Part shown: one piece after another, positions 34,398 to 50,488 of the stretch | Layout of the letters: every line of letters begins with the position of its first letter | Numbering within the stretch: the first letter of the stretch is position 1 | Assembly: GCF_030127105.1 (NCBI RefSeq) | Contig: NZ_CP126162.1 | Coordinates: 310,001-374,000, forward strand | Reading direction: 5' to 3' | DNA from: Haloarcula pelagica | Lineage (GTDB): Archaea > Halobacteriota > Halobacteria > Halobacteriales > Haloarculaceae | DNA: 64,000 bases | Position numbers and translations under genes: made by a program | Notes under the pieces: generated by a model | Told to the model about the DNA's origin: nothing | The model's database searches: none | What the model saw: only the letters and a program-made list of their open reading frames with translations

Positions 34398-34940
34398 TCA
34401 CGGTTCACCGAATCCTGGTGGGGTCGTCGGCCCGCGCCGTCGTCGTGAGAGGTAGTGCACTGCCGTCAACAGCAGGAAGCTACTCGCGACGACGATCCCG
34501 ACACCCGTTCCGCCCAGTGCCGACAGCACCGGCACCCCGGCGACGACCCCGAGCACGAGGACGACGTTTGCCGCTGCCAGTAGCAGGTAGTACAGATACC
34601 AGGGCCGCTCCGTCTCCTCGTCCATGATGTACGGGTCGAGTTCCGAGGACTTGTTCGCGAGCGAGACATCGCCCGAATCGCTGTCGTAGGTCACCAGACC
34701 CGCCTCAGCGAGCTTCGGGATGTGGGTCTGATACAGCGAGACGTACACCCGTTTTCTGTCCTGCGAGGACAGCTCTTCGACCGTCGTCTCGTTTTCCCAC
34801 GCTGCGACCTCTTCGGCGAGATCGGTCATCTGGATCGGGCTCTGCTCGGTCCGGAGGTAGTGGAGGACGTACCGGCGTCTGGGGCTACTGAGGATGTCGA
34901 AGATCCGATCGCGTGAGAGCTCTGATGTTTGTTCTGCCAT
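34398..34940 (-). CDS. DUF7344 winged-helix protein with C-terminal membrane pair
   Basis: 180 residues. DRIFDILSSPRRRYVLHYL, MTDLAEEVAAWEN and SSQDRKRVYVSLYQTHIPKLAEAGLVTY form the wHTH domain; WYLYYLLLAAANVVLVLGVVAG and GIVVASSFLLLTAVHYL form two helices. It is paralogous to 27129 and 35310. A GTAACAAAA sequence lies at 35024-35032, about 83 bases upstream. Confidence 0.85.
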   Translation of the reverse strand: MAEQTSELSRDRIFDILSSPRRRYVLHYLRTEQSPIQMTDLAEEVAAWENETTVEELSSQDRKRVYVSLYQTHIPKLAEAGLVTYDSDSGDVSLANKSSELDPYIMDEETERPWYLYYLLLAAANVVLVLGVVAGVPVLSALGGTGVGIVVASSFLLLTAVHYLSRRRRGPTTPPGFGEP

Positions 34941-35309: not shown

Positions 35310-35900
35310 ATGTCACGAATAACCAGCTCGACCGACGAAGCCGACGGGACTCGCCCCAATACCACAGTTGATGGCGGGGCCGACGAGGAAGCGTCCAGCC
35401 AGCCTCCCGACTCGCCGGCAGAAGCCGACCCCGGGATCGCACCGGAGACTGCGTTCGACATCCTCCGGAACAGCCGGCGGCGCCTCGCGATCGTGTACCT
35501 CCTCGAAACCGAGGGCGGCGCCGTCTCTCTCGGCGACCTCGCCGAACACGTCGCGGCGATCGAGAACGGTGTCTCCCGCGAGGAACTGTCCTCGGCACAG
35601 CGAAAACGGGTGTACGTCTCCCTCTACCAGAGCCATCTCCCACGGATGGAAGAGGCCGGAATCGTGCGCTTCGACCAGGACCGCGGACTGGTCTCACCCG
35701 GCCCCCAGGCCGCCGCCGTCGAAGCGTATCTTGACCCAACAGGGCGCCGCGACTCCCGCCGTTGCTACGTGGCCATCACGGTCGCCGGGACGGCACTGCT
35801 CGCGGTCAGTTTCCTGACCGGCACGATCCCCGGTTCCGCCGTCGCCCTCGCGGTCCTGCTCGCCGTCGGTATCTGTACGCTCGTCGACCGACTGCGGTGA
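35310..35900 (+). CDS. DUF7344 winged-helix protein with C-terminal membrane pair
   Basis: 196 residues. After a ~45-residue acidic N-terminus come AFDILRNSRRRLAIVYLLE, VSLGDLAEHVAAIEN and SSAQRKRVYVSLYQSHLPRMEEAGIVRF, then two membrane helices (CYVAITVAGTALLAVSFLTG, SAVALAVLLAVGICTLV). It is divergent from the paralogue at 34398 across a 369-bp spacer, which suggests cross-regulation. Confidence 0.85.
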   Translation: MSRITSSTDEADGTRPNTTVDGGADEEASSQPPDSPAEADPGIAPETAFDILRNSRRRLAIVYLLETEGGAVSLGDLAEHVAAIENGVSREELSSAQRKRVYVSLYQSHLPRMEEAGIVRFDQDRGLVSPGPQAAAVEAYLDPTGRRDSRRCYVAITVAGTALLAVSFLTGTIPGSAVALAVLLAVGICTLVDRLR

Positions 35901-38468: not shown

Positions 38469-38972
38469 TCACTCGGACTCGCCGACGATCTCGCTCCGGC
38501 CGGTGCCGATCGGGTCCTGGTCCGGCAGTCGCGTGAACCGCGTTCGACTGTACAGCGTGAGGTCGTACTCGGGATACGTGTGGTACGTCTCGTACCCGTC
38601 CTTGTCGAGCGCGATCGCCGTGACGGCGTCCTGGCCGAACCAGTACGACAGGTCGAACGACTCTCCGGCCGGGAACGACGCGAGCGGCCGGTGTTCGAGC
38701 ACCGTCTCGCACCGAATACCGTCCGTCTCGTGGTCGAGCCGTCGCCGCTCGCCCCCGTCTTTCAGCGGGATCGTCGCTCCGGTACTCTCGACGGGGTCAC
38801 ACGACGAGAGCTCGTAGAAGTCGTACTCGGGCGCGCTCACGTAGTGTGAACTCCCGATGACACGGAACCGGAACTCGGTGCCCAGGAAGGGCTGCGTGAG
38901 TTCGTCGAACACGGTGACCTCGTCGGTCGGCGGGGTCGAACTGTGGACGAACGTCAGTGTCTCTCTGGTCAT
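38469..38972 (-). CDS. DUF2617 family protein
   Basis: 167 residues from ATG 38972. TEFRFRVIGSSHYVSAP, RCETVLEHRPLASF, DAVTAIALDKDGYETYHTYPEYDLTLYSRTRF match the actinobacterial DUF2617 pattern (shape, GASH and YHTYP blocks). Function unknown. It overlaps the spermidine-synthase-like gene by four bases (ATGA), so the two are translated together. Confidence 0.72.
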   Translation of the reverse strand: MTRETLTFVHSSTPPTDEVTVFDELTQPFLGTEFRFRVIGSSHYVSAPEYDFYELSSCDPVESTGATIPLKDGGERRRLDHETDGIRCETVLEHRPLASFPAGESFDLSYWFGQDAVTAIALDKDGYETYHTYPEYDLTLYSRTRFTRLPDQDPIGTGRSEIVGESE

Positions 38973-40738
38973 GTGTAGCCGACGATGATGTCGTAGTTCG
39001 GATCGAAGACGCTGTTCGGTTTGACGCCGCGATACGTCGCCAGCCGCTCCCACTCGAACGGTCCCAGTCGGTCGCCAGTCCGCCTGACGTACTCCCCGCG
39101 AGCCCGTTCCAGGGACGGCTCCGGCGTCGGCCCGTGAGAGAGGACGTAGAACCGCTCGCCGCGTTCGTACTCCCCGTCGCCGTCCAGGTCGTCGACCACG
39201 GAGTAGGAAAGGTGACGGTCGAAGCCGGCGGCGGCGACGGTGTTGTGGTAGGCCTTGTTGTGCTGGGGGTAGTTGTACCGGGAGTACACCCAGGAGACGA
39301 CGACCCCGCGGTCGGTGAGATGTCGGCCCAGGAGGGTGTAAAACTCCTGGGAGTACAGCGGGAGCGCGTCGTCGCTACGGGCGCCCGGCACGTCGAGCAG
39401 TATCAGGTCGTACCGCTTGTCCGTCCCCCGCAGGTACGTGTAGGCGTCACCGACGGTGGTGTTCAGCCGGTCGTACCTGTAGGCGTTGTCGTGGAACTGC
39501 TCGAAGTAGCTCCGGTTTTTCGTGTACTCTAAGAACTCCCCGTCGATGTCGACCTGGTCGACGGAGACGTTGTACTCCCGGAGGTGGTTCACCGCGACGT
39601 AGTCGCCCCCGCCGACGAGCAGGACATCGACGGACGACTGGTTCTCGTACATCGACATCGGGATGTCGACGAGCCCGCTGTGGTAGGAGTCGACCCAGCT
39701 ATCACACAACTGTAACGCGCTGTCCAGACGGAGACACCGCTCGGGGCCGGCGTGTGCCTCGACACGGCGCTCGTACAGCGTGAGCCGCTGGTAGGCCGTC
39801 GTGCGGTAGGTCTGTACGTCGATCTCGACCGCGCCCGGGCGGTACTCGTCGGCGATCCGATCGCCCATGTACGCCCCGGTGACCGTCCGATCGACGCGCT
39901 CGCCGTTCGCGACCAGTCCGCCGTAGGTCCCCGTCAACAGCAGGCCCACGACGAGCACCGCACGCCAGTTCCCGACCGTCGGCCGCGAGAGGCTCTCGGA
40001 GACCCCGGTCAGCGTCCAGGCCGCGAACGCGAGCGCCGCCAGCGCGTTGAGCAGCCCCAGGACGAGCACCGTCACCACGAGTCCCAGCCGCGGGTACAAC
40101 ACGAGCGCGTAGACGACGGTGCCGAGGAGACTCCCGATGTAGTCCGCGCCGAGTACCTCAGAGAGCGACCGTCCATCGGAGTCCGAGACGCTGAAGAACA
40201 CGCCCATCACACGGCGGACGACCCGGCGGGGGTAGAGACTCCCCATGGCCGAGAACAGCGAGTCTTCCCGGTCCTCGACCAGATCGTCCAGCAGCGGGAG
40301 CTCGAACCCCGAGAGGACGCCGACGACGACGATCGGCAGGTGCGCGAGCACGAGCGTGACGGTGTATTTCCCCGGGAACGCCACGTTCGGGAACGAGTTC
40401 AGGGCGACGATGAACCCGGCGCCGACCGGGCCCGCGAGCGAGAGATACACCTCGGTCCGTAGCAGGTTCGACTCGGGGTCGTCGAGCTGGCCCGACAGCA
40501 AGGCGCCGACACCGAGCGAGAACATGTACAGACCGATCGTGATCGAGTACCGGACGACCGTCCCGCCGTAGAAGACCGTCAGGAACTGCGAGTACACGAG
40601 TTCGTACGCGATCGAACAGAACGCGACGACGACGGTCAGTCCCAGTTTGAACCGGCGGTCGGTCACCGACCCCCATCGGGCGGAGTCGGGACTATCCATG
40701 CCGCTCCCGCCGGTCGCATCGGACGCGGACTGGGACAT
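38969..40738 (-). CDS. Membrane-anchored spermidine-synthase-like protein
   Basis: 589 residues. The first ~285 residues hold about seven to eight membrane helices in two groups (VVVAFCSIAYELVYSQFLTVF... and VLVLGLLNALAALAFAAWT...). The C-terminal part has the aminopropyltransferase fold: VDVLLVGGGDYVAVNHLREY, VDQVDIDGEFLEY, YDLILLDVPGARSDDALPLYSQEFYTLL. The same two-part build occurs in bacterial membrane spermidine synthases. Polyamine synthesis is not proven; it could be a related transferase. It is flanked by a Tat lipoprotein upstream and DUF2617 downstream. Confidence 0.85.
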   Translation of the reverse strand: MSQSASDATGGSGMDSPDSARWGSVTDRRFKLGLTVVVAFCSIAYELVYSQFLTVFYGGTVVRYSITIGLYMFSLGVGALLSGQLDDPESNLLRTEVYLSLAGPVGAGFIVALNSFPNVAFPGKYTVTLVLAHLPIVVVGVLSGFELPLLDDLVEDREDSLFSAMGSLYPRRVVRRVMGVFFSVSDSDGRSLSEVLGADYIGSLLGTVVYALVLYPRLGLVVTVLVLGLLNALAALAFAAWTLTGVSESLSRPTVGNWRAVLVVGLLLTGTYGGLVANGERVDRTVTGAYMGDRIADEYRPGAVEIDVQTYRTTAYQRLTLYERRVEAHAGPERCLRLDSALQLCDSWVDSYHSGLVDIPMSMYENQSSVDVLLVGGGDYVAVNHLREYNVSVDQVDIDGEFLEYTKNRSYFEQFHDNAYRYDRLNTTVGDAYTYLRGTDKRYDLILLDVPGARSDDALPLYSQEFYTLLGRHLTDRGVVVSWVYSRYNYPQHNKAYHNTVAAAGFDRHLSYSVVDDLDGDGEYERGERFYVLSHGPTPEPSLERARGEYVRRTGDRLGPFEWERLATYRGVKPNSVFDPNYDIIVGYT

Positions 40739-40750
40739 CCGGTGGTGGAC

Positions 40751-41452
40751 TCACACGCGGGGACGGACGTGCCAGGACTTGTCGATCTGCCAGGAGCCGT
40801 TGTTGTCGATCTCGAAGTCCGCACCTTGCCACCCGAAGTCGGCGTTCGACTCCTCGCCGACGAGTTTCGTTCCGACGCGATACCACCCCTCCTGTGGGCT
40901 GCTGGACGGGGCCGCCTCCGAGAGCGCGACCGTGTGTGACGCCCCGTTCTGTGCGCTGGACCACTGTGTGTCCCAGGGGACCGGTCCCGCATCGGGCGGG
41001 TCGTTCTCGTAGCGCTGGTCGCTGCCGAGGTAGGCGACGCCGGCCGCACTGATCGCCGCCGGGTACATCCGCAGTTCGTCGTCGTGTTCCTCCCGCCAGT
41101 CGTCGTAGTCGCCGCCGTGCCAGACGGCCCACCCGTGTCGGCCGCGGGGCGCGTTGCTGTAGGCGCCGGAGCCACGTGTCGCACCGCGTGCGCCTTTCTG
41201 AGCGCTGGCGACGCCGACTGGGGAGAGCTGTCCGAGCGCCAGCGAGCCGTCGACGGTTTCGACACGCGACTCGACTCTGGGGTTCGAGACGAACTGGATC
41301 TGCAACTGCGTCCCGCTCAGCGAGACACCTTCGAACACCTGTGCTCTGCGGGGTGGAGGGGAACTGCTCCCGCCGGAACAGCCGGCGAGCGCGCTCAGGG
41401 CGGTCCCTCCGATCAGCGCCGACCCGCTGCGGAGGAACGATCGTCGATCCAT
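40751..41452 (-). CDS. Tat lipoprotein, function unknown
   Basis: 233 residues. DRRSFLRSGSALIGGTALSALAGCSGG is a Tat signal with a lipobox (LAGC), so the mature protein is probably lipid-anchored outside the cell. The body has HGWAVWHGGDYDDWREEHDDE and ends in FEIDNNGSWQIDKSWHVRPRV. The gap to the spermidine-synthase-like gene is 12 bases, indicating one operon. It occupies the place of the small exported protein in actinobacterial DUF2617 loci, but I cannot show homology. Confidence 0.75.
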   Translation of the reverse strand: MDRRSFLRSGSALIGGTALSALAGCSGGSSSPPPRRAQVFEGVSLSGTQLQIQFVSNPRVESRVETVDGSLALGQLSPVGVASAQKGARGATRGSGAYSNAPRGRHGWAVWHGGDYDDWREEHDDELRMYPAAISAAGVAYLGSDQRYENDPPDAGPVPWDTQWSSAQNGASHTVALSEAAPSSSPQEGWYRVGTKLVGEESNADFGWQGADFEIDNNGSWQIDKSWHVRPRV

Positions 41453-41554
41453 ATTGCGTCCACGTATTTGCAGCGGTAAATAACTTCCGCTTACCTCGGC
41501 GTTCGACCCCCTTCCCACTGTTTGAAGTGTGCTCGTTCGGTAGGTAGGGCAAGC

Positions 41555-42520
41555 ATGGGAGACGACTGGACCGCCCCGACAGACGAGTTCTCGGGCGACG
41601 TGCGCCTCCAACACCGCGAGGAGACGATGGGACTTCGGGGGGCCGAAGACGTGTACGTCAGTGGCGAGGCCGTCGCTGGTGAACTGGCCTTCCTCGACGC
41701 GGAGTACGTCTTTACCGACGTGGCAGTCGACGGCTCGCCGTCGCTGGACGGGGGCGATGTCGACACCGCGGTCAGCGGCGACCTGGACGACGGCTACGTC
41801 GACGATGTCGCCGACGACGTGGTCGTCACGGAGATCGAAGACGCGTTCGTCCAGTACGGCGGGGCCGAGCGGGTCACCGTCGGCGGCGTCGAACAGGTCT
41901 TCCACGACGACTCCGCCGCACCGACGAAATCACCCGAACAGTACGAGGTCACGGTCAACGGCTGGAACCACTCCCGGAAGGTGACCGACCCACGGGACGG
42001 CGTCGCAGTCGTCGGCGCGAAAAACGAGGTCCGGGTCACGGAGGCCGCCCACGACCTGACGGTGTACGTCGTCGGGTGGGACAACGAGGTCCGCGTCGAG
42101 GGCCGGAACGCGGACGTGACGGTGTTTTTCGTCGGCCGCGACAACACCGTCAGCACCGGCCCGTACCTCTCCCAGTCGCTGGCAGCCGAGAGCGGGTTCG
42201 ACAACACGGTCGACGCCGATCCGCTCCCGCCCGATGCCGTCATCCAGACCTCGAAGTCCGAGGCCCACGGCGACGCCGTCTTCGGCCGGCACAAACTCAC
42301 CTGGCAGGAGCCGGCCGCCGACAAGGACTGGTGTCCCAACTGCGGCAGCAACGCCGACGCCGTCATCGCCCGGAAACAGCGGGACGCGCTGTTCCTGTTC
42401 AAACTCCCGGTCCGGACCTACGACGACGGCGGCGTCTCCTACGAGTGTGAACACTGTAGCCGCCACGCGCCCGACCACGTCTCGCTGTCCGAAGCCGAAC
42501 GCCGCGACGCCTTGGAGTGA
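41555..42520 (+). CDS. Beta-repeat protein with C-terminal zinc ribbon
   Basis: 321 residues. Residues ~130-215 hold three similar beta repeats (EYEVTVNGWNHSRKV, LTVYVVGWDNEVRV, VTVFFVGRDNTVS). The C-terminal ~70 residues contain CPNCG and, 32 residues further on, CEHC, a four-Cys zinc ribbon. No signal peptide. Divergent from the Tat lipoprotein gene and upstream of the channel gene by 97 bases in the same direction. Confidence 0.7.
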   Translation: MGDDWTAPTDEFSGDVRLQHREETMGLRGAEDVYVSGEAVAGELAFLDAEYVFTDVAVDGSPSLDGGDVDTAVSGDLDDGYVDDVADDVVVTEIEDAFVQYGGAERVTVGGVEQVFHDDSAAPTKSPEQYEVTVNGWNHSRKVTDPRDGVAVVGAKNEVRVTEAAHDLTVYVVGWDNEVRVEGRNADVTVFFVGRDNTVSTGPYLSQSLAAESGFDNTVDADPLPPDAVIQTSKSEAHGDAVFGRHKLTWQEPAADKDWCPNCGSNADAVIARKQRDALFLFKLPVRTYDDGGVSYECEHCSRHAPDHVSLSEAERRDALE

Positions 42521-42617: not shown

Positions 42618-44756
42618 ATGTCAGACTCCGAAATACCACAGACACCCTCCGACGTGTCACAGGCCCGCGCCGTCCTCACGCGCTCGCCTGCGGAACGCGA
42701 GGCCGAGGGCATCGGGGCCGACGAGGTCGAGGCCGCGCTGGAGACGGTGCTCCGGGACGGGACCGCGGACGAGAAGACATTCGAGGGGTGTACGTTTCCG
42801 ACGCTGACCCTGGACTACGAGGTCATCCAGGGCGCCGACAACCACCCCGCGGTCTTCGAGAACTGTACCTTCGACGGCGGGATCAGTGCCGAAAAGGCCG
42901 ATATCGACATGCCGTTGCGGTTCCACGACTGTACGATCGGCGACCTGTTTCTCTACCACGCGCGTTTCGAGTACGACGTGGAGTTCGACGGCTCGACGTT
43001 CACGGGGACCGTCCAGGCAGACGAGACGCGGTTCGAACAGGACGCGGAGTTCGACGACGCCGTCTTCGAGGACCGGGTCGAACTCGTCGAGACCGACTTC
43101 TACGACGATACGAGCTTCGCCGGCGCGCAGTTCGAGGCCACGGCGTCGTTCCGGGGTTCGCAGTTCGAGGGCGAATCCAACGAACTCGACGACAACGTGA
43201 CCTTCGCGGGGGCCGTCTTCGAGGCCGAAGCGACCTTCGAGCAGGCCCACTTCGAGGCCAACCGGTTCGACGGCGCGACGTTCCAGGCCCCGGTGAACTT
43301 CACCGAGGTCCTGTTCGACCACGACACCGAGTTCGAGAACGTCACCTTCGAGGCCGACGCCACCTTCGACGAGATGGAGTGCAACGAGGACGCCGACTTC
43401 AGCGGGACCCACTGGGGCGGGACGGCGCAGTTCCGCGGTGCCGTGTTCAACGGCGGCGCTCGGACGATGGAGGACGACGCCTCGTTCGAAGGTGCCACCT
43501 TCGACGGCGACGCCCGGTTCGAGGAGGCCCAGTTCCGGTACAGCAACTTCACACAGGCCACGTTCGGGGCGGACGTGACGTTTCAGGAGACGCGGTTCCT
43601 CGGCGACGCCGACTTCAGGCAGGCCCGGTTCTCGGGACTGGCGGACTTCGACGAGACGCGGTTCCACCAGGAGGCGATCTTCACGGACAGTTCCTTCGAC
43701 GGCAGCGCACACTTCCGCGGCGCCGAGTTCGAGGGCCACGCGAACCAGCTCGAACAGAACGTCTCCTTCGACCGGGCCAGGTTCGGCGCTCCGGCCGATT
43801 TCAGCGGGGCGAAGTTCAGGTCGGTCTCGTTCGACGACACCGAGTTCGCGGCCGCGATGGACTTCTCGAACACCGAGTTCGCGGACGACGCGCGGTTCCT
43901 GTTGCGCGCCGTCGGCGACGACTCCTACGTCGACTTCACCGGCGCCTCGATCGAGGGCGGTTCGATCACCCAGCCCACAGAGGGGTGGGTCAGATACGAC
44001 TTCACCCGGGTGAGTCTCGGGGACATCGACCTCTCGGCCGAACGGGAGCGGGACCACCGCGAACTGTTCGATTACTTCCGGTTCTGTGAGACGGTCTTCG
44101 ACGAGTTCGACGGCAACGAGTTCGACTTCGAGGCCCACACCGACTACCTCGACCGCAACGGCTGGGACATCCACACCTTCAGCGACCCCGTCGACCGAGC
44201 CTACGCCATCGCTATGACTCCCGAAGCGATCGAGGCGACGTACCTCCGGGCGAAAAACAGCGCCTCTGCCGCCGGCGACATGAAAGCCGCGGGGGAGTTC
44301 CGCGTCAAGCGCCAGCAGTATGCCAGGAAAAAACACGTCAACATCGCGCTCGACGGCGGTGCGGGCGCCACCGCACGGGCGAAGAACGGAATCAGAGCCG
44401 TCGAGAACGCGTTCCTGGGTATCTCCTGTGGCTACGGAATGCGCATCTTCCGGATCTTCGGAGTGTTCGCCGTCGTCCCGGCGCTGTTCTCGCTGCTGTA
44501 CGCCTTCGGCGGGAAGGTGTTCGCGACGAGTGCGGCACAGCCGGCCTCTGTCACCGCGGCGCTGACCACGCCGGAGGGCCAAGCCGCGTTCTACAAACTC
44601 GTCTCGTTCAGTTACATCACGTTCCTGACCATCGGCTACGGGAACATCGGGCCGGTCGGCTGGGGTGCCCGGATCCTGGTCGCTCTGGAGGTGTACCTGA
44701 GTGTCATCCTCAGTGGCCTGGTCCTGTACGCGCTCATCAAGCGCTCGGAGATGTGA
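42618..44756 (+). CDS. Pentapeptide-repeat protein fused to K+-channel pore
   Basis: 712 residues. Residues ~60-450 are dozens of A(D/N)LXX-like repeats of the A.F(E/D).(A/T)F type, predicting a right-handed quadrilateral helix. After a helical linker (~residues 480-590) the C-terminus has one membrane helix (IFGVFAVVPALFSLLYAFG), a pore loop with SFSYITFLTIGYGNIGPVGW, and a second helix (ILVALEVYLSVILSGLVLYALI). TIGYGN is a K+-type selectivity filter. The build suggests a channel gated by, or anchoring, a cytosolic repeat domain. ATG 42618 is used since the earlier start adds only a few residues. Confidence 0.88.
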   Translation: MSDSEIPQTPSDVSQARAVLTRSPAEREAEGIGADEVEAALETVLRDGTADEKTFEGCTFPTLTLDYEVIQGADNHPAVFENCTFDGGISAEKADIDMPLRFHDCTIGDLFLYHARFEYDVEFDGSTFTGTVQADETRFEQDAEFDDAVFEDRVELVETDFYDDTSFAGAQFEATASFRGSQFEGESNELDDNVTFAGAVFEAEATFEQAHFEANRFDGATFQAPVNFTEVLFDHDTEFENVTFEADATFDEMECNEDADFSGTHWGGTAQFRGAVFNGGARTMEDDASFEGATFDGDARFEEAQFRYSNFTQATFGADVTFQETRFLGDADFRQARFSGLADFDETRFHQEAIFTDSSFDGSAHFRGAEFEGHANQLEQNVSFDRARFGAPADFSGAKFRSVSFDDTEFAAAMDFSNTEFADDARFLLRAVGDDSYVDFTGASIEGGSITQPTEGWVRYDFTRVSLGDIDLSAERERDHRELFDYFRFCETVFDEFDGNEFDFEAHTDYLDRNGWDIHTFSDPVDRAYAIAMTPEAIEATYLRAKNSASAAGDMKAAGEFRVKRQQYARKKHVNIALDGGAGATARAKNGIRAVENAFLGISCGYGMRIFRIFGVFAVVPALFSLLYAFGGKVFATSAAQPASVTAALTTPEGQAAFYKLVSFSYITFLTIGYGNIGPVGWGARILVALEVYLSVILSGLVLYALIKRSEM

Positions 44757-48280: not shown

Positions 48281-50488
<2,208 letters not shown>

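Follow-up and report, generated by a model that had tools for sequence, protein, structure and literature searches.

SpeE-type enzymes use decarboxylated S-adenosylmethionine (dcAdoMet), the aminopropyl donor made by S-adenosylmethionine (AdoMet) decarboxylase (AdoMetDC). In the literature, which is cited here by PubMed Central accession, AdoMetDC has been reported to be absent in halophiles (PMC5178350), Mycobacterium tuberculosis has been described as having no clearly identifiable AdoMetDC (PMC1282579), and the SpeE of haloarchaea has been discussed before (PMC5178350; PMC6267482). Here, we describe a locus of the haloarchaeon Haloarcula pelagica in which the gene for a small protein of the DUF2617 family follows that for a membrane-fused, SpeE-like protein. 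The locus lies in a stretch of 64,000 nucleotides (positions 310,001 to 374,000 of contig NZ_CP126162.1, assembly GCF_030127105.1), which is called the window below. What is new here is the likeness of DUF2617 to AdoMetDC, in organisms thought to lack that enzyme.

Some features of the closest described systems are needed for the comparison. Eukaryotic AdoMetDC is a fused pair of half-units, where the N half contains the pyruvoyl Ser and an adjacent proton-donating Cys, and the C half gives a His and the ribose-holding Glu; the prokaryotic enzymes can be aligned directly with the C halves, while aligning the N halves needs structure and a few residues (PMC1282579). In the enzyme of Thermotoga maritima, S63, H68 and C83 are essential for processing (PMC10407285). 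On the side of gene neighbourhoods, Ravi et al. (2024; PMC11237479) described a type of polyamine-gene operon with a K+ channel among its members, one variant of which contains a secreted/lipoprotein DUF4247 and DUF2617 (CCP45394.1), and predicted that DUF2617 is a beta-sandwich enzyme. The family is also mentioned in a study of Streptomyces synteny (PMC13118837) and in a paper on elephant serum proteomics (PMC9505326).

Considering the evidence below, DUF2617 is most likely a miniaturised AdoMetDC relative made of two fused half-units, in the style of the eukaryotic (class 2) enzymes, that would provide dcAdoMet for the SpeE-like protein; we hold this reading as a whole with somewhat better than even confidence. 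With a candidate of only ~167 residues, for which a cleavage site can be named, the question of the missing AdoMetDC can be put to experiment.

DUF2617 and AdoMet decarboxylase

The first-pass annotation, made from the letters of the window, had assigned the product of the gene at 38469 to DUF2617. At the level of the family this assignment holds, as all 33 haloarchaeal members scanned, the window protein included, match Pfam PF10936 at E ≤ 0.01 (best 8.5e-11), and relatives of the window protein include genes above the PF10936 cut-off (e.g., one in genome G005, 59% identical). The single sequence stays narrowly below the curated cut-off (E 3.1e-4; 21.3 bits, cut-off 22.3) and, consequently, would be missed as DUF2617 if taken alone; a PF10936 search of the window's own genome returned nothing at E ≤ 0.001. 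The cut-off is exceeded in 19 of 194 genomes of the class, and the window protein is matched in 22 of 195 genomes of the order, its own genome counted. Additionally, a pattern scan of viral contigs for DUF2617 relatives gave 20 stretches, none of which was confirmed, and a tblastn search of plasmids with a haloarchaeal DUF2617 (locus L094) gave 11 haloarchaeal records plus two from Proteus at E 3.

When a profile of 32 DUF2617 sequences was compared with all PDB sequences, two matches were obtained at E ≤ 10. The first is SpeD (2iii_A, E 0.51), aligned over F-x-P... and with the HTYPE of DUF2617 paired with HTWPE, and the second, nearly tied with it, is the cholesteryl ester transfer protein (CETP, E 0.54). 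As the SpeD match is not significant, a profile-profile comparison with SpeD was made. Between DUF2617 and 13 archaeal SpeD sequences, hhalign gives 75% (E 2.5e-5), and 83% (E 8.7e-6) with trimmed columns, which is modest in absolute terms. Three unrelated families of the cassette described below, used as decoys, gave 0.07-0.37% with DUF2617 and 0.05-0.15% with SpeD; 200 column shuffles scored 18.8 or less, against 37.5 for the real comparison; and disjoint DUF2617 subsets (21 and 33 sequences) gave 87% and 83%. The signal is found in both repeats of the protein. Repeat 2 alone is matched to SpeD at 89.6% (E 1.9e-6), where it aligns with FxPxGxTG...IHTWPE at equal spacing, and repeat 1 alone at 16% (E 1.6e-3), with 41% identity over 27 columns around E-S-H...C, falling on the same region of SpeD as repeat 2. 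In an hmmscan comparison (E ≤ 10) of the 33 members with 24,736 Pfam models, DUF2617 was matched by 33, AdoMet_dc by three (best 0.028) and one other family by one; AdoMet_dc is, thus, the only Pfam family besides DUF2617 matched by more than one member, although the match is weak. The eukaryotic family SAM_decarbox (PF01536) was not among the families matched. In sum, a remote similarity of DUF2617 to AdoMetDC is observed, and we consider it very probable that the two are homologous.

The AlphaFold2 model of DUF2617 is confident, with a predicted local distance difference test (pLDDT) of 91.9 and a predicted template modelling score (pTM) of 0.83; when it was aligned (VIA-align) to 997 PDB chains, the top four entries were AdoMetDC: human 1msv (Z 7.8 over 137 residues), Trypanosoma brucei (5.8 and 5.6) and T. 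maritima (5.0). The fifth entry, a lipid-transfer protein, is tied with the latter at Z 5.0, and the remaining ones are at 4.2 or below. As for the residues, S42, H43, E54, C58, F112, A116, T118, T129, H131, Y133 and E135 are invariant in all 54 DUF2617 sequences compared. Among them, we take T118 to be the Ser/Thr of the AdoMetDC site. The candidate pyruvoyl Ser is S42 and the candidate proton-donor Cys is C58, both in repeat 1, while repeat 2 would give the His (H131) and the ribose-binding Glu (E135), these equivalences being derived from hhalign and from PMC1282579. The counterparts of S63, H68 and C83 of the T. maritima enzyme would be, in this order, S42, H131 and C58.

Several observations weigh against an AdoMetDC-like enzyme, and no single line of evidence is decisive. 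The score of repeat 1 was equalled in two of 600 shuffles and, in an earlier set of 200, the best shuffle reached 28.5 against a real score of 20.5; moreover, the profiles of repeats 1 and 2 do not align with each other. None of the 33 members scanned reached the PF02675 cut-off, and because this gathering score is not attained, DUF2617 must be regarded as a distant relative only and not as a PF02675 member. At the genome scale, the eight sub-threshold PF02675 matches in the 32 genomes with the cassette hit the DUF2617 gene once (G168) and fell elsewhere seven times, and the window genome has no sub-threshold match. In the structural comparison, a Z below 8 may mean just a common arrangement, and ranks two to five are tied within 1; a Foldseek search with the model gave no AdoMetDC among its first 50 entries and had no match at E ≤ 0.001, and the model has no helix of four or more residues, against the alpha/beta/beta/alpha sandwich of AdoMetDC. 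As for physiology, Haloferax volcanii has no spermidine, no phenotype was seen under the conditions tested when its SpeE (HVO_B0357) was deleted, and traces of spermidine or spermine were found in just 20 of 117 halophile strains (PMC5178350). Finally, the Glu that precedes the pyruvoyl Ser is near-universal in the SpeD set, but it is found in only 20 of the 54 DUF2617; position 41, probably that of the base-contacting Glu of AdoMetDC, is otherwise Ser (26), Asn (4), Asp (2), Gln (1) or Ala (1).

Some of these observations would be expected if DUF2617 were, as predicted in print by Ravi et al. (PMC11237479), an unrelated beta-sandwich enzyme with two His, an Asp and a Glu, so that its likeness to AdoMetDC would be a convergence of short motifs and the cassette an envelope-stress system. 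The helix-free model, the weak Foldseek scores and the lack of a Pfam-level AdoMet_dc match agree with this proposal. H43, H131, E54 and E135, which are probably the two His and acidic residues meant by these authors, are present in 54 of 54 sequences. Nevertheless, convergence would have to account for the match of both repeats to SpeD, for the equal residue spacing in repeat 2, for decoys that do not match and shuffles that rarely or never do, and for AdoMetDC heading the structural comparison, and we consequently think it quite improbable.

It could also be that DUF2617 descends from AdoMetDC but has no decarboxylase activity, acting instead as an AdoMet/polyamine sensor or as a prozyme-like regulator of SpeE or of the channel. 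There is a precedent for this, as the T. brucei prozyme is a dead AdoMetDC paralogue, and AdoMetDC/prozyme entries do appear in the structural comparison. The variable residue before the candidate Ser and the absence of spermidine in Hfx. volcanii (PMC5178350) fit such a role, for which the K+ channel and the zinc-ribbon protein of the cassette would be possible outputs. By contrast, the candidate Ser, Cys, His and ribose-site Glu do not vary in any of the 54 sequences, which goes beyond what a dead enzyme needs. A regulator of this kind seems unlikely, and we consider a decarboxylase activity of DUF2617 fairly likely.

A conserved cassette in genomes without recognisable SpeD

The lipoprotein, the SpeE-like protein with its seven transmembrane (7-TM) segments, DUF2617, the zinc-ribbon protein and a pentapeptide-repeat K+ channel form a conserved haloarchaeal membrane cassette. 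A search with the SpeE-like protein gave 69 loci from named genome records, 57 of them haloarchaeal and 12 bacterial. Among the 57, the lipoprotein gene is found in 57, DUF2617 in 56, the zinc-ribbon gene in 53 and the channel gene in 44, some of the absences being contig ends. Where DUF2617 is present it is, without exception (56 of 56), directly downstream of SpeE and on the same strand, although in one of these loci (L096) it is split over two frames; in the 57th, the contig stops 28 bases past SpeE. The channel gene is missing from 13 loci, five of which extend less than 3 kb beyond SpeE on the right, while eight have full flanks and no channel gene within ~10 kb. A second set, obtained with DUF2617 as the query (32 neighbourhoods; 31 other genomes) and overlapping the first in organisms, is concordant on the cassette: SpeE-like and lipoprotein genes are each found in 31 neighbourhoods and zinc-ribbon and channel genes in 30, and the only neighbourhood with neither SpeE nor lipoprotein (L067) lies where its contig ends. 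With DUF2617 downstream of SpeE in 56 of 56 loci, the linkage of these two genes, to which the first-pass annotation had drawn attention, is beyond chance in haloarchaea.

Variations of the cassette are also observed. For instance, the lipoprotein gene is doubled in tandem at three loci (L069, L070 and L125, the last one from Halorussus aquaticus), and genome G235 has two copies of the cassette (L072 and L073) on one contig, the SpeE of L072 being matched as two separate pieces.

In the window (Table 1), the four genes that had been reported initially are all found at the places given for them. The lipoprotein, SpeE-like and DUF2617 genes follow in this order in one operon on the minus strand, with 12 bases between the first two and an ATGA overlap between the stop of SpeE and the likely start of DUF2617 (the ATG at 38972; the open reading frame start at 39053 is less likely). 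The zinc-ribbon gene, divergent here, is co-directional in many relatives, and it is adjoined by the fifth gene of the cassette, that of the K+ channel. A scan of the divergent region for sigma-70 promoters and terminators found nothing, archaeal promoters being outside its coverage. The closest relatives of the window SpeE in the plasmid collection are those of Haloarcula halophila (90.0% identity), whose plasmid has a gene order identical to that of the window, and of Haloarcula sp. GH36 (89.5%).

Table 1. Features of the locus, numbered from the first letter of the window
Feature	Position	Strand	Remarks
Tat (twin-arginine translocation) lipoprotein P0003	40751-41452	-	233 amino acids; ATG at 41452; twin-arginine signal, lipobox ...LAGC
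SpeE-like P0002, 7-TM part fused to a spermidine-synthase-like domain	38969-40738	-	589 amino acids
Spermidine-synthase-like domain of P0002	38972-39907	-	residues 278-589
DUF2617 P0001, candidate AdoMet-decarboxylase relative	38469-38972	-	167 amino acids
DUF2617 repeat 1	38775-38921	-	residues 18-66: G40-x-S42-H43...E54...C58; S42 codon 38847-38849
DUF2617 repeat 2	38523-38765	-	residues 70-150: F112..A116..T118..T129-Y-H131-T-Y-P-E135
Zinc-ribbon P0004 with DUF3060-like stretch	41555-42520	+	321 amino acids; divergent
Pentapeptide-repeat protein with C-terminal K+ channel	42618-44756	+	start uncertain: 42591, 42618 or 42654

Other genes are found near the cassette, such as two for DUF7344 proteins on opposite strands (35310-35900 and 34398-34940) and one for a 710-residue protein of the peroxidase family with two PF00141 stretches (48281-50413).

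The genomes with this cassette have no recognisable SpeD. PF02675 was above its cut-off in none of the 32 cassette genomes, while 8 of 14 control genomes were positive. In the class, PF02675 AdoMetDC is found in 2 of 194 genomes (L146 in G139 and L147 in G090), neither of which is among the 19 with DUF2617; these two genomes are exceptions to the published lack of an AdoMetDC homologue in sequenced halophiles. In a sample of 148 genomes of the phylum, PF02675 is found in 55 and DUF2617 above its cut-off in two, and no genome has both. Among the controls, Corynebacterium glutamicum and Hfx. volcanii were positive for DUF2617 and negative for AdoMetDC at the normal threshold; at E ≤ 10, these two and Methanosarcina acetivorans had an AdoMetDC match below the cut-off. 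PF01536 was found in none of the 32 genomes, which is uninformative, as no control genome matched it either.

Outside the haloarchaea, none of the other four families of the cassette was found near the 12 bacterial SpeE relatives (L134-L145), and a plasmid search with a SpeE from Bacillota gave no actinobacterium among the 55 records listed. Some of these bacterial neighbourhoods have features of their own. In two loci of Cloacimonadota (L134:9089-9955 and L135:9042-9923), the SpeE-like gene is preceded by that of a protein of ~290 residues, which starts in the manner of a Tat signal and for which no Pfam family exceeds its cut-off; this protein might parallel the haloarchaeal lipoprotein, homology not being implied. 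In Thalassobacillus (L137:7435-11500), there is an operon of DUF4178, PspA, DUF4247, DUF350 and SpeE, which is a bacterial version of the PspA type and whose SpeE retains the D-x-x-D-P gate loop.

The SpeE-like protein and the membrane

The SpeE-like protein matches Pfam Spermine_synth (PF01564) at E 3.9e-16, as well as 25 distinct sequences of solved structures, 24 of which are named aminopropyltransferase or spermidine/thermospermine synthase. Its donor site (GGGD379, D397, D431 and D449) is invariant in 54 of 54 sequences. By contrast, where the D-x-x-D gate loop of the solved aminopropyltransferases has its second Asp, which we take to bind the acceptor, all 54 sequences have Gly (G452). 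Because this residue is lost, we label the protein only as spermidine-synthase-like.

It has also been considered whether this protein is a plain cytosolic spermidine synthase, a candidate that was set aside because three features suggest that its synthase domain is outside. Firstly, the counts of Lys plus Arg (K+R) around its seven hydrophobic segments (2.2 at the N-terminus and 0.0, 1.93, 0.47, 4.67, 0.33 and 2.47 in the successive loops, for 15 representatives with less than 60% identity) predict that the N-terminus is inside and the synthase domain outside the membrane. Secondly, C335 and C345 are invariant and are the only cysteines of the synthase domain present in more than 30% of the sequences. 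Thirdly, NxS/T sequons are more frequent than expected, both in the 54 sequences (163 vs. 71.9, or 2.3x) and in the 15 representatives (50 vs. 24.2, with 14 for the mirror motif). The sequons alone are weak evidence for an outside location, since the exported lipoprotein is not enriched in them (ratio 0.98) and the N-terminal 550 residues of the channel are somewhat enriched (1.46). We regard this predicted topology of SpeE as probable.

As for the remaining proteins of the cassette, the lipoprotein has a match to Pfam TAT_signal below the cut-off (E 0.014), and a PPPR motif follows its lipobox. Its AlphaFold2 model is a beta-sandwich (mean pLDDT 79.1) with no Foldseek match at E ≤ 0.001, and the structural alignment gave mixed matches, many of them similar to immunoglobulin or fibronectin type III domains, the best of which, at Z 5.8, is tied with others within 1. 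The zinc-ribbon protein has sub-threshold matches to the DUF3060, DUF7351 and zinc-ribbon families of Pfam. By profile, no sequence relative was found in the PDB for the zinc-ribbon protein at E ≤ 0.1 or for the lipoprotein at E ≤ 1. The channel protein matches Pentapeptide_3 (E 5.2e-55) and, over its cut-off, Ion_trans_2 (E 5.8e-6), and its selectivity filter is TIGYG in the window and T[IV]GYG in 44 of 44 relatives.

If DUF2617 is the decarboxylase that we propose, the cassette might work as follows. DUF2617 would cleave itself before S42 to form a pyruvoyl cofactor, with S42 and C58 retained in repeat 1 and H131, T118 and E135 in repeat 2. The processed protein would decarboxylate AdoMet, and the resulting dcAdoMet would be passed to the SpeE-like aminopropyltransferase, whose translation would be coupled to that of DUF2617. 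Whether AdoMet is the substrate is a question on which we lean, with some reserve, towards a positive answer. A pyruvoyl decarboxylase for arginine, ornithine or another amino acid could be imagined in its place, as decarboxylases of arginine and ornithine that derive from SpeD are widely distributed (PMC10407285) and Hfx. volcanii produces agmatine and cadaverine (PMC5178350); yet DUF2617 follows in 56 of 56 loci the gene of a SpeE-like protein, a type of enzyme that requires dcAdoMet, and an enzyme acting on arginine or ornithine would have no evident need for the invariant ribose-site Glu, which makes another substrate rather improbable.

The subsequent steps would take place at the membrane. 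With the second acceptor Asp of SpeE lost and its domain predicted to be outside, the acceptor is probably something other than cytosolic putrescine, and the cassette might modify an amine located at the membrane or external to it, controlling the K+ channel or being controlled by it; the product of SpeE, or a modified surface component, could act with the lipoprotein to set the channel. That the function of the cassette is linked to the K+ channel at all is a tentative suggestion, drawn from gene neighbourhood alone, and the enzyme claim for DUF2617 is better supported. The main tension of the proposal is found here, and it counts against it, as an external SpeE domain conflicts with a cytosolic supply of dcAdoMet unless the donor is moved across the membrane; with the decarboxylase in the cytosol and the transferase outside, either donor transfer or a different acceptor logic is needed. 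In a bolder form, DUF2617 would be a new architectural class of AdoMetDC, with two half-units fused in miniature, and would provide dcAdoMet in haloarchaea as well as in actinobacteria; in the haloarchaeal cassette, the 7-TM part of SpeE would pass the donor from the cytosol to its exterior aminopropyltransferase domain, which would aminopropylate an amine outside or a component of the surface and thereby tune the pentapeptide-repeat K+ channel (a vectorial aminopropylation); we regard this version as speculative and unlikely to be correct in full.

The first-pass annotation had suggested that the function of the locus may concern the envelope rather than polyamines. The second half of that suggestion is not supported, given the resemblance of DUF2617 to AdoMetDC, the maker of the aminopropyl donor of SpeE, which makes the cassette point to aminopropyl chemistry. 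The cassette may still have an envelope role, since the prediction places the SpeE domain outside and the lipoprotein gene adjoins that of SpeE in 57 of 57 loci.

Comparison with known systems

It had also been claimed that the function is undescribed and that DUF2617 sits, in actinobacteria, beside a membrane spermidine synthase and a small exported protein. The first of these claims is correct only in part, and the second finds some support in print. A bacterial version is in print, as DUF2617 was placed in a polyamine-gene operon with a secreted/lipoprotein partner (PMC11237479), and haloarchaeal SpeE has been discussed; nonetheless, no DUF2617-AdoMetDC link and no five-gene cassette were found in the open-access literature searched. 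Regarding the linkage in actinobacteria, the passage by Ravi et al. on the DUF2617 variant names neither SpeE nor actinobacteria (PMC11237479). The haloarchaeal cassette resembles that bacterial DUF2617/DUF4247 variant in the secreted/lipoprotein partner and in belonging to a polyamine-gene operon type with a K+ channel, and it differs in its Tat lipoproteins, which form a family of their own, in its channel, which has pentapeptide repeats, and in its zinc-ribbon protein; DUF350, DUF4178 and PspA had no match among the eight window proteins scanned. The bacterial example given in that work is presumably from M. tuberculosis, to judge by the CCP prefix of its accession.

The SpeE-like protein is similar to HVO_B0357 of Hfx. 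volcanii, which has been described as a membrane protein that contains the GGGD(W/Y) motif and retains the residues of the active site (PMC6267482), and as having seven transmembrane segments and non-conserved putrescine-binding residues (PMC5178350). The word DUF2617 was found in neither of these two papers.

For DUF2617 itself, three kinds of AdoMetDC offer a comparison. Class 1b SpeD (PF02675; T. maritima and archaea) has FxPxGxTG...HTWPE, which resembles repeat 2, and ESH...C, which resembles repeat 1, but it is a single half-unit, whereas DUF2617 would consist of two fused half-units, with part of the site lost from each. The SpeD1-SpeD2 fusions, such as that of Victivallis vadensis (271 residues, with a degraded C-terminal domain), also have two half-units in one chain, the second of them without self-cleavage; they are recognisable as SpeD, contain 271-318 residues and have proven AdoMetDC activity (PMC10407285), in contrast to the ~167 far-diverged residues of DUF2617, with the full site in neither half. 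Finally, class 2 AdoMetDC of eukaryotes (human, potato) is about twice as long (the 1msv_A chain has 319 residues vs. 167), and the DUF2617 model differs from it in being free of helices of four or more residues, with no Pfam-level match in sequence. It is, however, with this class that residues 1-150 of the model align best (1msv_A), and it is here that Ser and Cys are found in the N half and His and the ribose Glu in the C half (PMC1282579). If the proposal is true, the fusion of half-units behind eukaryotic AdoMetDC would have a second outcome, far diverged, in DUF2617.

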